Below are positions 5,382 to 52,800 of a DNA stretch of 64,000 nucleotides, one piece after another. The translations under genes and the position numbers were made by a program. This DNA comes from Desulfobacteraceae bacterium Eth-SRB2. Lineage in GTDB: Bacteria > Desulfobacterota > Desulfobacteria > Desulfobacterales > UBA11574. The stretch covers positions 23,501 to 87,500 of the forward strand of contig RPGQ01000010.1 in NCBI GenBank assembly GCA_004193595.1, given 5' to 3'. How positions within the stretch are numbered: position 1 is the first letter of the stretch; every line of letters begins with the position of its first letter. The notes beneath the pieces were generated by a model. It was not told the DNA's origin. It was given only the letters and a program-made list of their open reading frames with translations, and made no database searches.

Positions 5382-5614
5382 GTAACCGTTCACGGTTCAA
5401 AGTTTCAGGGGTTCAAGGTTTCATTCTTGTCCCCAAACTACATTTGATATGCGTATTTACGAGAAAAGTGTCAGTTTCGTCAGTCCTAATCCAAAATTTG
5501 AAGATAGATTGGCAATTACCTGGGAAAATGAACATTTGTAAAAAGGACTTCATATCTTCAATGCCCTCTTTGTCCTTAACCTTGAACGTTGAACACTGAA
5601 CCGTGAACAGATAC
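5382..5614. repeat. Family A element, copy 1
   Basis: Ends GTAACCGTTCACGGTTCA and (reverse complement) GTATCTGTTCACGGTTCA. Flanking direct repeat TTTATTCT at 5374-5381 and 5615-5622. Second copy in opposite orientation at about 29793-30024. Confidence 0.75.
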
Positions 5615-10714: not shown

Positions 10715-10807
10715 GGAGAGATGGCCGAGTCGGCTGAAGGCGCTCGCCTGCTAAGCGAGTGTGGGGCGAAAGTTCCACCGAGGGTTCGAATCCCTCTCTC
10801 TCCGCCA
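10715..10807 (+). tRNA. tRNA-Ser(GCT)
   Basis: Acceptor GGAGAGA/TCTCTCC, anticodon loop CTGCTAA, long variable arm, encoded CCA. Confidence 0.95.
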
Positions 10808-10815
10808 GAAAAACA

Positions 10816-10846
10816 AAAAGCCCGATTAAAAAGTCGGGCTTTTTTA
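10816..10846 (+). terminator. Rho-independent terminator after tRNA-Ser
   Basis: aaaaagcccgattaaaaagtcgggctttttt hairpin plus T-tract. Confidence 0.85.
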
Positions 10847-10888
10847 TTCTCACACCAAAAACTTAGCATTGTTTATGACAAAAGCAGG

Positions 10889-11581
10889 TTAAGCTCTGTC
10901 CATTTCACCCATCATCTGGTCCTTGTAAATCTGATAATATTTAAAGACCTTTTTGATATAGTGTTGGGTTGCCTTGAACGGTGGTATCCCCTGATAATGC
11001 CTTACGTTTCTGCTCCCGGCATTGTATGCCGCAAGAGCCAGTTCCACGTCCCCGTTGAATTGGGTAACCAGCTTTTTGAAATACCGTACCCCGCCGCTTA
11101 TGTTTTGCTTGGGGTTGAAAACATCCTCCACACCCAGCGCCTGGGCAGTTGCCGGCATGAGCTGCATAAGGCCTTTTGCACCTCTTTTGGAAATTGCTCT
11201 GGCATTATATCCGGACTCCGCCATAATGATCGCCTTTACAAGGGCAGGATCAACCTGGTGGCGACTAGCCGTTTGAATGACAATACGATGTAAGAGACGT
11301 TCGGCGTCCTTTCTGCCAATGGATGATAACCTGTGTCCCATGTTGGCATAATCGTATTCCTCTATCAGAGATCCGGAGTTCGCACCCTTTGAAATTGCCG
11401 ATATTTTATCGAGAATCCAGGCAGGCTTACGGCTATTGTAATTGGAGGCAACAGATACACCTATGATCATTATAGAAATGAATAGAAATTTCACAAGTCC
11501 TATTGATAATAGGTGTATAATTAGTTTTTTATCCATTATAGATCTCATTTTCGTTAGTTGATTACTTAACGATGTTTGCAT
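10889..11581 (-). CDS. lytic transglycosylase (SLT domain)
   Basis: ALVKAIIMAESGYNARAISKRGAKGLMQLMPATAQALGV...AAYNAGSRNV. Confidence 0.9.
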   Translation of the reverse strand: MQTSLSNQLTKMRSIMDKKLIIHLLSIGLVKFLFISIMIIGVSVASNYNSRKPAWILDKISAISKGANSGSLIEEYDYANMGHRLSSIGRKDAERLLHRIVIQTASRHQVDPALVKAIIMAESGYNARAISKRGAKGLMQLMPATAQALGVEDVFNPKQNISGGVRYFKKLVTQFNGDVELALAAYNAGSRNVRHYQGIPPFKATQHYIKKVFKYYQIYKDQMMGEMDRA

Positions 11582-12651: not shown

Positions 12652-12738
12652 AACACCCTCCTAATTTTTAAGTGTTGAAAAAGCCAAATAGATTCTTGAT
12701 AAAAGGTGCAGGCCAAGTCGGTTCGCTTAGCCCCGAGC

Positions 12739-12849
12739 TGGAATGTTGGAATATTGGAATATTGGAACACTGGAATATTGGGTTTTGGGAAAATGGAAAA
12801 TTGGGTTATTGAAAAATTCCTCCATTCCAGCACTCCATTCTTCCATTCT
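12739..12849. repeat. Family F 8-mer array element, copy 1
   Basis: tggaatgttggaatattggaatattggaacactggaatattggg facing ccattccagcactccattcttccattc. Confidence 0.65.
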
Positions 12850-12914
12850 GATGAAATAAACAGGTTGCCATTAATAAACCTGTATTTTCAAGAATTTGTA
12901 GAATTCCCGAGACG

Positions 12915-18551: not shown

Positions 18552-18720
18552 ATGTGTAATTCACTGATGTTGGTTAACAGCGGTCATTTATTACTTTCCA
18601 TCGGAATTCGAAGGTCTGGTTTCAGGTGTCGGGTGTCAGGTGTCAGGAGGACGAACGTAAGAGCTGACACCTGAAACCTGGATTGCTTGAGCTAAATCAC
18701 CAACAATCTTGATTTACACC
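18552..18720. mobile_element. Family D1 element, copy 1
   Basis: Near-identical to 32870-33052. Flanks CATCCGACAT and CATTCGACAT; right end TTGATTTACACC. Confidence 0.8.
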
Positions 18721-19048
18721 CATTCGACATTAGATATTGACATTTTATTTTTATTCCAATATATTAATAACTCAATTAGCTTGATCAAGGCGAATGTCAA
18801 CAGGCCTTCCCACAAGGAAGGCCTTCACGTTTGGCTTGAAAGGAATCCTATCCTTCCTTCGTAGCCTTATTTTCCTAAAATGTTAGTGTTTTACCTGTTA
18901 GAAATCCGGTTAATACCCGTTCTGTTTATACTGGCCATTCTAGTTTCTTTAAATCGAGGCTAAAGATATTCCCGGATATTGTGAGCGTCAAAGCAAGCTT
19001 TTTTTAACATATTATCAATTCTAAAACCGAAGAAATCGATTATATAAG

Positions 19049-22988: not shown

Positions 22989-23070
22989 CCAAGCGGAGAT
23001 CCCGCATAGCGGGGCTGCGGGGAGCTTCATTTTTTTCGCGACCCCTTACGAATTTATCAAACTTAAGTCG

Positions 23071-23613
23071 GGTGATCAAGACTGTTGTTTGCTAAGATTG
23101 CTATGGCTATTTGGTTTCAGGTGTCAGGTGTCAGGTGTCAGGAAACATGTTCAGTAGTAATGGGCCAGCCCTGAGGGAACGATTCATTTTTTACGCCATA
23201 CACTGCCGTTTTCTCAGCTAACTGCCAGCGGCGTTCTCGCTCTGGGACTTTCCGTTCCAATGTTTTCTCTAATCCATTCAACATACGAATGCATTCTTTG
23301 TAACGACCCCGAATTTCTAAATACACCTTTTCCGTGATGTACCCTTTGAGTTTCGCCATGAACAGATGGTGAATGGTCTCAGCTGCTTCGCCCCTGGCGC
23401 GATTCACGCCTTCAATTTTGTTACGGATATAGCGGATCATCATTTTTCTCGGCGAGTTGTGCAGGATCGCTGTTTGAGGAGCGCCTGGAATTGGTCACCT
23501 CGTTTCCCCCTTAATCCTTAACCCTGACACCTGAAACCTAAAAAAAAAGCTTTGGAGCCACGGTTTGTCAATAGAAAGGCATCAGCGTTTACCAACGGTC
23601 TTGATTTCCACCC
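23071..23613. mobile_element. Family D2 element, copy 1, carrying a four-helix-bundle ORF
   Basis: Ends GGTGATCAAGACTGTTG and (reverse complement) GGGTGGAAATCAAGACCGTTGG. Flanks ACTTAAGTCG and AGTTAAGTCG. Internal arms ggtttcaggtgtcaggtgtcaggtgtcagg and cctgacacctgaaacc. Confidence 0.8.
23138..23443 (-). CDS. four-helix-bundle (S23/IVP, bAvd-like) protein, probably N-terminally truncated
   Basis: EGVNRARGEAAETIHHLFMAKLKGYITEKVYLEIRGRYKECIRMLNGLEKTLE resembles the C-terminal half of the family. Confidence 0.55.
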   Translation of the reverse strand: MMIRYIRNKIEGVNRARGEAAETIHHLFMAKLKGYITEKVYLEIRGRYKECIRMLNGLEKTLERKVPERERRWQLAEKTAVYGVKNESFPQGWPITTEHVS

Positions 23614-23615
23614 AG

Positions 23616-24362
23616 TTAAGTCGCTTGGTTTTTTATATAGGGCGCTGGTTGCAACCATTTGTTTTTATTGCTATCGTAAAACCATTTGTCCGGGAATCCC
23701 CGACGTTTGAGATAAGAAGGATTCTCCGCCCAGCTGATAAGCTCTAAATATGCCTGGTGAATTCTTCTGAATGTATCTGTATCTCCCCCAAGGTCCGGAT
23801 GATGTTTTTTAACCTGAAGCCGGAATGCACTTTTTATTGTTTTTTCAAGTTCCGGAGAATTCAAATTCGACTTGTCAAGCTTCAAGTACATCAGCGACGC
23901 CTTTTTAACGGCGGGAATTTTTATTTCCGGCGGCATTACAGAACAGAATGCAGGATCATTGCGTCTTGCCCTTTCGAGCAAGAAACGGGTGGCAATATAG
24001 TTTCGATGCGTTCGTTTTTTTTCGGCCCACCATTTATTTCCAAGAATCTCGGACATAATACAGTAATCCTCGGCGGGTTTTTTTCCGGTAGAACGAGGAT
24101 AGATAAAGCTGAAGATTTCTTTGGAATTATAAGGAAGAACATCCATAACGATCATTATGTCAGTAAAATAAAAGGTCGCATAGCGGGTGTTTAATGTCTT
24201 GAGCAAACCGGTTCTTAAATTAAGCGCATACCTGAGCTTCTGTCGGCAATCAATGGAACAATACCTTCGCCGGCCAAGATTTTCGTCTGTACCGCAGGAG
24301 AGACATTGTCTTTTTATCCTATGATCCGAACAGAATATGTTTTTTTGTAAAGAACTTTTCAT
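23616..24362 (-). CDS. DnaJ-domain protein with N-terminal Cys motif
   Basis: TIKSAFRLQVKKHHPDLGGDTDTFRRIHQAYLELISWAE (HPD); CLSCGTDENLGRRRYCSIDC. ATG at 24362 preferred because the upstream part lies in a repeat. Confidence 0.7.
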   Translation of the reverse strand: MKSSLQKNIFCSDHRIKRQCLSCGTDENLGRRRYCSIDCRQKLRYALNLRTGLLKTLNTRYATFYFTDIMIVMDVLPYNSKEIFSFIYPRSTGKKPAEDYCIMSEILGNKWWAEKKRTHRNYIATRFLLERARRNDPAFCSVMPPEIKIPAVKKASLMYLKLDKSNLNSPELEKTIKSAFRLQVKKHHPDLGGDTDTFRRIHQAYLELISWAENPSYLKRRGFPDKWFYDSNKNKWLQPAPYIKNQAT

Positions 24363-25868: not shown

Positions 25869-25900
25869 GTTTGTTTCCTTTGGATGAATGGACACTACTT

Positions 25901-26077
25901 GACGGTCTCGTAAAAAGTCCAACTTCTGCGTTGTGCTGCATTTCGCAATCATTCAGCGTACGAAAAGTACGCCTCATGATTACAAAATTTGCGACGCCTT
26001 TTTATCCCGCCTATGTTTGGCGGGGGAATTTGAACTTTTTACGAAACCGTCTAAATCGGACTTTTTACGAGTTCATC
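25901..26077. mobile_element. Family G MITE-like element, copy 1
   Basis: TIR GACGGTCTCGTAAAAAGTCC / GATGAACTCGTAAAAAGTCC; near-identical (3 differences by eye) to 30417-30593. Confidence 0.85.
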
Positions 26078-26078
26078 A

Positions 26079-29792: not shown

Positions 29793-30024
29793 AAACAGTT
29801 CACAGGTTCAGGGTTCAACGTTCAGGGTTAAGGACAAAGAAGGCATTTAAGATCCGAAGTCCTCGTTACAAATGTTCATTTTTCCAAGTAATAGCCAATT
29901 TGGCTTCAAATTTTGGATTAGGCCTGACGAAATTGACGCTTTTTTCGTAAATACGCATCCCAAATGCAGTCCGGGGACAAGAATGAAACCTTGAACCCCT
30001 GAACCCTTGAACCCGTGAACGCCT
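29793..30024. repeat. Family A element, copy 2 (inverted relative to copy 1)
   Basis: Arms gttcacaggttcagggttcaacgttcaggg and ccttgaacccctgaacccttgaacccgtgaac. Flanks CAAAAATTAG and CAAAATTTGG. Confidence 0.7.
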
Positions 30025-30066
30025 ACAAAATTTGGCACTGTTTTCAGAAACACGAGGAAAATTTTA

Positions 30067-30411: not shown

Positions 30412-30416
30412 ATCGT

Positions 30417-30593
30417 GACGGTCTCGTAAAAAGTCCAACTTCTGCGTTGTGCTGCATTTCGCAATCATTCAACGTACGAAAAGTACGCCTCATGATTACA
30501 AAATTTGCGACGCCTTTTTATCCCGCCTATGTTTGGCGGGGGAGTTTGAGCTTTTTACGAAACCGTCTAAATCGGACTTTTTACGAGTTCATC
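30417..30593. mobile_element. Family G MITE-like element, copy 2
   Basis: Same TIRs as copy 1, flanked by direct repeat AAATCGTG. Confidence 0.85.
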
Positions 30594-30644
30594 AAATCGT
30601 GTCCATCCATAAATCTATATTGGACACTAACCCGGTAGTATACC

Positions 30645-30831
30645 GGGGTGATTAAAATTGCCCATAATATGGCTTTAAAAAATATCCCATATTTATTCCT
30701 TCCCGTATGCTTGGTGTCAGGTTTCAGGTGCCAGCGCCTCTGTTCATCATTCCTGACACCTGAAACCTTAAGATATGGAACAAAAATGGGATTAAAATTC
30801 CATCTGTATACACGGCGATTTTCACCACCCC
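30645..30831. mobile_element. Family E element, copy 1
   Basis: TIR GGGGTGATTAAAATTGCC / GGGGTGGTGAAAATCGCC; perfect 10-bp direct repeat GTAGTATACC on both sides. Confidence 0.85.
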
Positions 30832-30843
30832 AGTAGTATACCA

Positions 30844-32869: not shown

Positions 32870-33052
32870 GTGTGTAATTCACTGATGTTGGTTAACAGCG
32901 GTCATTTATTACTTTCCATCGGAATTCGAAGGTCTGGTTTCAGGTGTCGGGTGTCAGGTGTCAGAAGGACGAACGTAAGAGCTGACACCTGAACACTGAC
33001 ACCTGAAACCTGGATTGCTTGAGCTAAATCACCAACAATCTTGATTTACACC
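32870..33052. mobile_element. Family D1 element, copy 2, between gltX and glnS
   Basis: Same sequence as 18552-18720 except one substitution and a 14-bp (2x7) expansion; flanks share CTAAAGAA. Confidence 0.85.
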
Positions 33053-33073
33053 CTAAAGAATGGAGCTTTGAGT

Positions 33074-35471: not shown

Positions 35472-35757
35472 TGAAATCAAGACCGTTGGTAAACGCTGAT
35501 GCCTTTCTATTGACAAACCGTGGCTCCGAAGCTTTTTTTAGGTGTCCGGTGTCCGGTGTCAGGTGTCAGGTGTCAGGTTTCAGGTGCCATCGCCTCTGTT
35601 CATCATTCCTGACACTTGACACCTAAAGATATGGAACAAAAATGGGATTAAAATTTCATCTATATACACGGCGATTTTCACCACCCCACCTGACACCTGA
35701 CACCGGACACCAAATAGCCATAGCAATCTTAGCAAACAACAGTCTTGATTTAAACCC
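35472..35757. mobile_element. chimeric element: inverted family D2 ends with a family E half at the centre
   Basis: Left aatcaagaccgttggtaaacgctgatgcc... and right ...ccaaatagccatagcaatcttagcaaacaacagtcttgatttaaaccc are D2 ends; 35567-35697 matches the right half of family E. Confidence 0.75.
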
Positions 35758-35828
35758 ATGCTTCGCAGAAGCCACATTTATAAGCTCTAATAAATCCTTA
35801 TCTTCAGAGACTGTTCGGAGGCAGAACC

Positions 35829-42722: not shown

Positions 42723-42930
42723 GGGGTGATTAAAATTGCCCATAATATGGCTTTAAAAAATATCCCATATTTATTCCTTCCCGTATGCCTGGTGTCAGGT
42801 TTCAGGTTTCAGGTGCCAGCGCCTCTGTTCATCATTCCTGACACCTGACACCTGACACCTGAAACCTTAAGATATGGAACAAAAATGGGATTAAAATTCC
42901 ATCTGTATACACGGCGATTTTCACCACCCC
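42723..42930. mobile_element. Family E element, copy 2
   Basis: Same TIRs as copy 1; direct repeat AGAAACGACAT on both sides; 21 bp longer than copy 1 (3x7 bp). Confidence 0.88.
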
Positions 42931-43104
42931 AGAAACGACATAAGCATAGAAGATATATTCCATATAACAATTCCATAGCGTGGATGGACACTATCTAGTG
43001 AGGAAAGAATCGGGAATCAGGTCGTCAGAACAAAAAGTGTTATGCAGTGGAAGTCAAATCAATGTAAAGCACTGACTTTAATAGGGGGTCATCAAAAATC
43101 TAAT

Positions 43105-44314: not shown

Positions 44315-44746
44315 TTCCGGGCTCCTCCTTTGCTTTTAAGTTTAACCTAAATCGAGCTATTTTTTACTCCATTTGCACCGATCTCCCCGCTGACGGGGGA
44401 TCTTGGACTTGCGCATCAAGGATCCGCGAAAAATCTCGACATATCCATCCCGATGTTTTTTCGGGACGTTTTCGTAAACCCTTATGCATCAAGATCTCAG
44501 CACATCTCTTCCCAAAAAATTCCTCAACGCAGATTTAATAATCAACCCTCTCTTTCAACTCTTTTCCACATTTATAAAACGAAAGTTTCTTCGAGTTGCT
44601 TTGTAGCTTCTGAAATTTGAATTAATTCAGTTAAATACATCAAAAAAAAAGAACTGTCAAGAATTCTGTAGGGTTGAAGGATTATGGCATTAAAGGAATG
44701 GAGTCAGACCGTTTGGAGGTCATTCCAAACTGTTCATACTTCCTTG

Positions 44747-45039
44747 GATGTAAATCAAAACTGTTGTTTGCTAAGATTGCCATGGCTATTTGGTTTCAGG
44801 TGTCAGGTGTCAGGTGTCAGGAGGCATGGAGCCCTGAGGGAACGATTCATCTCCATTTAACAAATGTGTAACCGACACAACTTTTTATAGACCTCAAGAT
44901 CCTCCACGTCCATATAATTGCTATTGGTCACCTGGTTTCCCCCTTAACCCTGACACCTGACACCTAAAAAAAGGGCTTCGGAGCCACGGTTTGTCAATAG
45001 ACAAGGATCAGCGTTTACCAACGGCTTTGATTTACACCC
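44747..45039. mobile_element. Family D2 element, copy 2 (internally deleted, no ORF)
   Basis: D2 ends and arms as in copy 1; perfect 10-bp direct repeat TACTTCCTTG at 44737-44746 and 45040-45049. Confidence 0.88.
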
Positions 45040-47606: not shown

Positions 47607-47675
47607 CGTTTTGAAAATTTTACAATTGGTTAAAATTAAAGATATTTTAATAGATTTTGGTTTATGCTACTTCCA

Positions 47676-47796
47676 TGGAATGATGGAATATTGGAATACT
47701 GGAATATTGGTAGTAAGGGCGGAAATCAACCATTTTAATTGTAAAAAACTCCTTCACCCCATAATTCCATTGCTCCATCATTTCAACATTCCAATT
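47676..47796. repeat. Family F 8-mer array element, copy 2
   Basis: tggaatgatggaatattggaatactggaatattgg facing ccataattccattgctccatcatttcaacattcca. Confidence 0.65.
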
Positions 47797-52467: not shown

Positions 52468-52479
52468 TAATGCCCCAAT

Positions 52480-52709
52480 TGGAATAATGGAATAATGGAA
52501 TGATGGATAGTAGAGTGATGGAGTGATGACTCAGGCTAATTAGAAAAAAAGTCACACTCCGGTAAGATCCACCGGACTTGCGGGACAGGCTGGAAAAAAT
52601 GATGGATGAGCTTGTCCTGAACGAAGTTGAAGGAAAGGAGTTTTTTTACAATGAAAATGGTTTATTTCCGTCCTTATCCCCAATATGCCAGTATTCCATC
52701 ATTCCATTC
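52480..52709. repeat. Family F element, copy 3, between mrdA and rodA
   Basis: tggaataatggaataatggaatgatgg facing ccagtattccatcattccattc, about 230 bp overall. Confidence 0.65.
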
Positions 52710-52800
52710 GGATGGCATAAATACGTTGAAATTAATAGACTGTTAATTTCAATGAGTTGTAAAATTTTCAACACCTCTATCTATATGGAGTGTAGCGGTT

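Follow-up and report, generated by a model that had tools for sequence, protein, structure and literature searches.

Truncated S23/IVP gene in a miniature heptad-array element, and inverted short-repeat arrays around IVP genes of many bacterial phyla

In genomes of at least ten phyla, genes of the S23/IVP family lie between inward-facing arrays of short repeats, and the element at positions 23071-23613 of the window (the whole 64-kb stretch of DNA that was analysed) is a recent insertion that carries the remnant of such a gene. According to the explanation favoured here with moderate confidence, this element belongs to a transposable family as a non-autonomous copy with an internal deletion, while the inner array-IVP-array cassette would be housed in diverse transposable shells and would include the 23S rRNA intervening sequences.

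The element (e2) is ordered, from the outside inwards, as outer inverted arms (GGTGATCAAGACTGTTG.. and ..CAACGGTCTTGATTTCCACCC) extending ~40-75 bp beyond the heptad arrays, one heptad array per side and, innermost, a minus-strand ORF. Its features are:

23061..23070, no strand: left target-site duplication ACTTAAGTCG, present as a single copy, ACTTAAGTTG, at the empty site of genome G006
23071..23112, plus strand: left outer arm, terminal inverted repeat GGTGATCAAGACTGTTG (repeat families D4 and I4)
23113..23142, plus strand: left heptad array GGTTTCAGGTGTCAGGTGTCAGGTGTCAGG, 3' of the ORF, its 7-bp period detected by TRF
23138..23443, minus strand: truncated S23/IVP gene, reduced to its C-terminal 101 aa by deletion of the N-terminal half (profile matches, comparison with longer copies)
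23484..23494, no strand: internal deletion scar, CCTGGA/ATTGG microhomology (comparison with full-length copies)
23495..23522, minus strand: remnant of the IVP 5' leader with the Shine-Dalgarno-like stretch GGATTAAGGGGGAAACGAGGTGACC on the minus strand (comparison with full-length copies)
23523..23538, minus strand: right heptad array CCTGACACCTGAAACC, 5' of the ORF (from the sequence)
23539..23613, plus strand: right outer arm, terminal inverted repeat CAACGGTCTTGATTTCCACCC (repeat families D8 and I2)
23614..23623, no strand: right target-site duplication AGTTAAGTCG (from the sequence and the G006 empty site)

Comparison with the sister genome G006 revealed an empty site (L252) that reads ..TTTATCAAACTTAAGTTGCTTG.. 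and contains the 10-bp target once, such that the flanks of the element represent a true target duplication. The first-pass annotation had described a heptad-repeat element with target-site duplication enclosing a four-helix-bundle ORF; the arrays and flanks are as it had stated, but the ORF is only a fragment. The element, with its inverted arrays, is flanked by convergent genes, namely a pyruvate:ferredoxin oxidoreductase gene on one side and a DnaJ-domain gene on the other. As had also been stated, no rRNA is found at this position, the 23S rRNA gene of the genome being located outside the 64-kb window. Terminal inverted repeats, a target-site duplication of fixed length, empty sites and the lack of a transposase gene together assign the element to the MITEs, or non-autonomous TIR transposons. 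Other identities were rejected: a CRISPR array, given that the repeat units are contiguous 7-mers rather than repeats parted by unique spacers; a REP/RAYT system, given that the arrays of the full-length copies and of the intact locus L106 (see below) leave space for the IVP gene alone; and a 23S rRNA intervening sequence in place, given that the element lies outside any 23S gene.

Profile searches, proposed earlier as a check of the family assignment, gave a divided answer for the ORF itself. Against TIGR02436 ('four helix bundle protein'), ORF 23138-23443 passed over positions 52-108 (32.1 bits, cut-off 24), whereas PF05635 was matched at positions 58-106 only and, as befits a fragment, with a score (29.9 bits) under the cut-off of 33.8. 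The ORF corresponds to the C-terminal two thirds of an S23/IVP gene, left by a microhomology deletion. Longer copies in the same genome (C14, C46, C19 and C63) keep the N-terminal half, preceded by the Shine-Dalgarno-like GGGGGAAACGAGG; from the window copy, this half was lost between two ATTGG/ATGGG stretches near 23484-23494. The long copies of the source genome carry stops, frameshifts or an insertion, and an intact family ORF of 153 aa was found between AGGTGTC arrays in a genome of the same genus, G003 (L106), which holds another copy, L102, with a perfect 9-bp duplication (AACCCGACC). The L106 protein matches PF05635 with 83.7 bits and TIGR02436 with 77.4 bits. Its AlphaFold model (pLDDT 90) has as best PDB matches 2gsc and then 2rld, S23 proteins of five chains each, followed by Avd (4dwl; TM-score 0.86, normalised on Avd) and the ribonucleoprotein of a diversity-generating retroelement (DGR; 8ub7). 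The assignment to the S23/four-helix-bundle family is thereby upheld, the fold being judged from the model of intact L106 and the window fragment being devoid of the N-terminal helices. The further suggestion that the window copy may be the protein-coding form of the element holds for the family, which does have such a form, but not for this copy, whose ORF, a truncated pseudogene, is ruled out as the active form. Purifying selection acts on intact IVP genes (median dN/dS of 0.097 over 86 pairs of IVP genes of the GGTTCA group). We know of no enzymatic motif in the S23/IVP family, and PADLOC returned no match to a known defence family.

In its own genome, the family of the 23071-23613 element numbers ~40 copies (107 BLASTN pieces). 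Further elements of the AGGTGTC kind are found in the window, none with an assigned strand:

18553..18721: e1, third shell type, AGGTGTC arrays, target-site duplication ATCCGACAT/ATTCGACAT, empty in G006
30645..30832: e3, second shell type, AGGTGTC arrays, target-site duplication GTAGTATACC, empty in G005
32871..33053: e4, third shell type, target-site duplication (C)TAAAGAA, empty in G002
35473..35758: e5, chimera of 23071-23613-family arms and an e3/e6-like interior, with the junctions at the heptad arrays
42723..42931: e6, second shell type, target-site duplication AGAAACGACAT
44745..45039: e7, second copy of the 23071-23613 family, deeper internal deletion of the IVP gene, target-site duplication TACTTCCTTG

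Empty sites were thus identified in sister genomes for four window elements (e1, e2, e3 and e4), and the AGGTGTC unit is common to three unlike outer shells. The target-site duplication of the AGGTGTC family is ~9 bp long, with 57% of sites, each entered on both strands, surpassing the 95th percentile of a null of mismatched flank pairs. Genome-wide, the pattern CAGGTGTCAGGTGTC was counted 360 times and its reversed control once. At L255 and L256, IVP genes have been lost through microhomology deletion, with the arrays remaining.

Another possibility is that the IVP gene is mere cargo of ordinary MITEs and that the arrays are slippage-prone spacers unrelated to the protein. In its favour, the AGGTGTC copies are MITE-like in their TIRs, 9-bp duplications, random orientation and decayed ORFs, many array-bearing elements are without IVP, and one 100-bp copy (L261, ~190-290; G000:C4:61490) comprises both outer arms, with no arrays and no payload. 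Still, a passenger role is considered unlikely, as it leaves unexplained the matched, lineage-specific arrays that surround IVP genes in many phyla, most of them without recognisable MITE arms, and the lack of such arrays at ParE genes of the same genomes. Likewise, the family resembles MITEs and other TIR elements mobilised in trans in being short, with TIRs, a fixed duplication, many copies and internal deletion derivatives, yet differs from them in that a conserved protein, not a transposase, is encoded between the lineage-specific arrays of full copies and in that its differing shells share arrays and swap interiors.

The tie between IVP genes and arrays was apparent at every one of the 27 PF05635 places of the source genome (27/27 between short-repeat arrays). 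The 12 full-length IVP genes are without AGGTGTC arrays, each lying between arrays of its own kind (units GGTTCAA, AGGATAG, GCCTAAAAT, TGGAGTAC, AATGGTCA, GAACATCGA and others), and the remaining 15 places are fragments or stop-containing genes within AGGTGTC arrays. When public genomes were scanned with a single IVP protein, 80 loci were recovered, from Desulfobacterota, Planctomycetota, Verrucomicrobiota, Chloroflexota, Nitrospirota, Elusimicrobia, WOR-3, KSB1, Acidobacteria and other phyla, in nearly all of which arrays hug the gene; this sample, biased towards one IVP subfamily, was enlarged by 30 loci taken from 17 genomes and by 10 that lie on complete isolate plasmids, among them plasmids of Riemerella and cyanobacteria, with the same pattern being seen. 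As arrays also occur on complete isolate plasmids, the pattern is not a binning artefact.

When the upstream and downstream flanks of each gene were compared, an inverted match of at least 12 was obtained at 65/71 IVP loci, as opposed to 4/170 offset positions on the same contigs (3/87 and 1/83). In a non-redundant set (loci clustered at 85% identity), array evidence was present at 62/74 loci, with inverted matches at 69% for flanks of the same locus versus 2% for mismatched loci, and array periods of 7 (72), 8 (16) and 9 (5). Within the same 17-18 genomes, arrays accompanied 24/27 IVP genes and 2/27 ParE toxin genes (Fisher p=1e-9). The first-pass annotation had staked its proposal on four-helix-bundle genes being enriched between inward-facing short arrays; with the massive enrichment found here, the proposal stands on this count. 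Exceptions are L004 and L215, where arrays on both sides share the same orientation, and the plasmid locus L283, with short traces only. Arrays of different loci were alike in ~53% of pairs when the proteins were 70-90% identical, but in 0-2% when identity was below 50%; the unit is therefore a property of the protein lineage, with both arrays of a locus changing in step. Given such locus-specific matching and the purifying selection on the genes, a functional tie of IVP to its arrays is likely; the role in mobility or maintenance at which the first-pass annotation had hinted is putative. Within the open-access literature, to which the search was confined (i.e., excluding subscription papers and preprints), no previous account of heptad arrays around S23/IVP genes was found, nor any paper linking these genes to array-flanked cassettes.

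Arrays of the octad TGGAATAT and their inverted counterparts also occur in the window without an IVP gene (12731-12870, 47668-47718 and 52472-52721), one of them between the PBP2 and RodA genes of an mreBC-pbp2-rodA cluster. This octad is the unit of the L010-type IVP gene, and the window octad arrays are probably array-only leftovers of IVP cassettes.

With respect to orientation, of 53 intact, non-redundant loci for which both neighbours could be seen, 47 are in sense between two co-oriented genes and 2 are antisense, which differs (p=1e-4) from the 6 sense and 7 antisense AGGTGTC-family copies of the source genome. On the basis of this difference, IVP genes appear to stay intact only where host transcription runs through them, as it does in rRNA intervening sequences. 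The arrays abut start and stop codons, with the neighbouring genes at median distances of 100 bp and 52 bp. Such placement, together with sense orientation in operons and purifying selection, is also what would be seen were a host-domesticated IVP to regulate itself and its operon neighbours via the arrays, at the operator or translational level, with mobility being incidental; in Beggiatoaceae, TAACTGA heptads that precede start codons have been proposed as regulator sites (PMC4679880). Recent empty sites, target-site duplications and internally deleted copies, however, reflect turnover typical of selfish elements, and a mirror-image array downstream would be superfluous for an operator, such that a regulatory role of this kind is deemed improbable. 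The Beggiatoaceae heptamers, like those of cyanobacteria and Bacteroidetes, resemble the present arrays as 7-bp direct repeats near start codons for which horizontal spread was proposed, but form direct rather than inward-facing arrays and were not linked to S23/IVP (PMC4679880). Were the arrays kept as an RNA stem, a sense-strand bias in G.U asymmetry would be expected; the test for this asymmetry was negative (p=0.65-0.86), and duplex energies of the 150-nt flanks were not discriminating.

Knowledge of intervening sequences in 23S rRNA dates back to 1990. Among the loci considered here, L282, on a plasmid of Azospirillum lipoferum 4B, is an IVP gene lodged within a 23S rRNA gene, between inward-facing 7-bp arrays (AGAGGACGGATGACAGAGGACGGAGGACAG upstream, the inverted counterpart downstream). 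In the Coxiella intervening sequence, three tandem GACAGAT heptamers precede the S23 ORF, and a 28-bp terminal stem and RNase III cleavage at the first repeat have been described; the same study called the function and origin of intervening sequences, along with the role of the S23 protein, unclear, citing an older suggestion that the ORF had a part in mobility (PMC4990558). The intervening sequences of Coxiella, Leptospira and others are like the intact relatives of the window cassette in having a sense S23/IVP gene between complementary ends, the window copy itself being flanked by convergent genes; the Coxiella heptamers lie just upstream of the ORF. By contrast, the window element and nearly all of its relatives lie outside rRNA, and the window family has transposon-like outer arms and 9-10-bp target duplications.

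The GGTTCA element L006 is absent from G006 and has an 8-bp duplication (ACATAGCT), and five related GGTTCA loci have TIRs starting with GTA and 8-bp duplications, with none at 7, 9 or 10 bp. As the IS66 copies of the source genome have GTAAG ends and 8-bp duplications, an IS66-type transposase acting in trans is a good candidate for the mobiliser of this group. As mobiliser of the AGGTGTC family, IS66 was rejected, its ends being different, as was IS256 (PF00872), which is absent from the genome. With IS256 and IS66 checked, no transposase with GGGTGTAAATC ends was found for this family, nor was an intact transposon with such ends seen among the TIR pairs read (L261-L273). A general scan of divergent IVP loci for TSDs and TIRs gave no signal, perhaps owing to the age of the insertions, and 8-bp duplications emerged only among the closely related GGTTCA loci.

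Exchange between elements is visible in e5 and L263, chimeras that combine the arms of the 23071-23613 family with the interior of e3/e6, while IVP is carried behind two arm types (intact in the e3-type L106, and in the e2-type L102). Judging from these junctions, interiors are exchanged at the arrays. At a site shared by L002 (G000) and L109 (G004), moreover, the IVP genes are 97.5% identical, the flanking genes 87-90% identical and the array lengths different, and a similar excess of IVP over flank identity was seen at the site shared by L009 and L258, from two species. This likeness suggests cassette exchange or re-homing, although it is seen in only some pairs and is partly due to protein conservation. 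Near-identical cassettes between differing flanks could also arise if IVP, like Avd, partnered a reverse transcriptase in trans that copied cassette RNA into other arrays. Avd and the DGR ribonucleoprotein share the fold of L106, L278 weakly matches the Avd model (36.8 bits, below its cut-off), and IVP genes are in sense within transcribed regions. Nonetheless, on reading the ~3-kb IVP loci, no reverse transcriptase or template/variable repeats were noticed, and TIRs with fixed 8- and 9-bp duplications are better suited to DDE transposition; retro-homing is accordingly given somewhat less credence than either a passenger or an operator role. REP/BIME sequences with their RAYT offer another parallel, in that short repeats are scattered in the genome and flank a protein gene, but RAYT is a Y1 transposase, whereas IVP is a four-helix bundle without known catalytic residues.

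In the explanation favoured here, namely an array-IVP-array cassette in transposable shells, the full form of the family consists of a terminal inverted arm, a heptad array, the S23/IVP gene, an inverted heptad array and a second terminal arm, the inner part being one case of a widespread cassette to which the 23S rRNA intervening sequences would also belong. The intact cassette would reside in transcribed regions and be expressed off the host operon transcript, in which its two arrays may pair into a stem; for the Coxiella rRNA case, processing by RNase III has been described. IVP, which like its S23 and Avd relatives probably forms a pentamer, may recognise its own array unit and so help the cassette to persist, be exchanged or re-home between arrays. 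Movement of whole elements would fall to DDE-type transposases acting in trans on the outer ends, presumably IS66-like with an 8-bp duplication for the GGTTCA family and some other enzyme with a 9-bp duplication for the AGGTGTC family. Copies landing out of sense would lose the gene and persist as array-bearing miniature elements like 23071-23613. More tentatively, S23/IVP could be the array-reading part of pan-bacterial mobile cassettes, each lineage reading its own 7-9-bp unit and spreading or exchanging the cassette between the arrays of unrelated transposon shells and operons, with 23S rRNA intervening sequences being simply the cassettes whose landing site was in rRNA. The present data set these intervening sequences within a very common bacterial architecture, offer the orphan S23/IVP protein a candidate ligand in its own heptad array, and suggest IVP cassettes as a source of many unexplained heptanucleotide arrays in bacterial genomes.

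Linkage of IVP proteins to CRISPR modules has been reported (PMC10910872). Cyanobacterial plasmid cassettes (L278, L280 and L281) were observed between cas10 and cmr3 and between cas6 and cas4, and such cas-gene cassettes may be the source of that association.

Other repeats were noted in passing. A ~230-bp miniature element without heptad arrays (inverted pair I1; window 29794-30026 and 5394-5602) has dozens of ~93% copies in the source genome and its sisters. A 179-bp repeat, of which there are many in the genus, is present in the window at 25900-26078 and 30416-30594 (copies 98% identical) and is missing at the 25900 site in G006 and G002. Finally, in G005, at almost the same spot as e4, there is a different hairpin element with the TIR TGAGTCTGTTGATTAAT (L245, ~10780-10980, reverse strand), and a core related to it interrupts the IVP gene at C19:65.5k.
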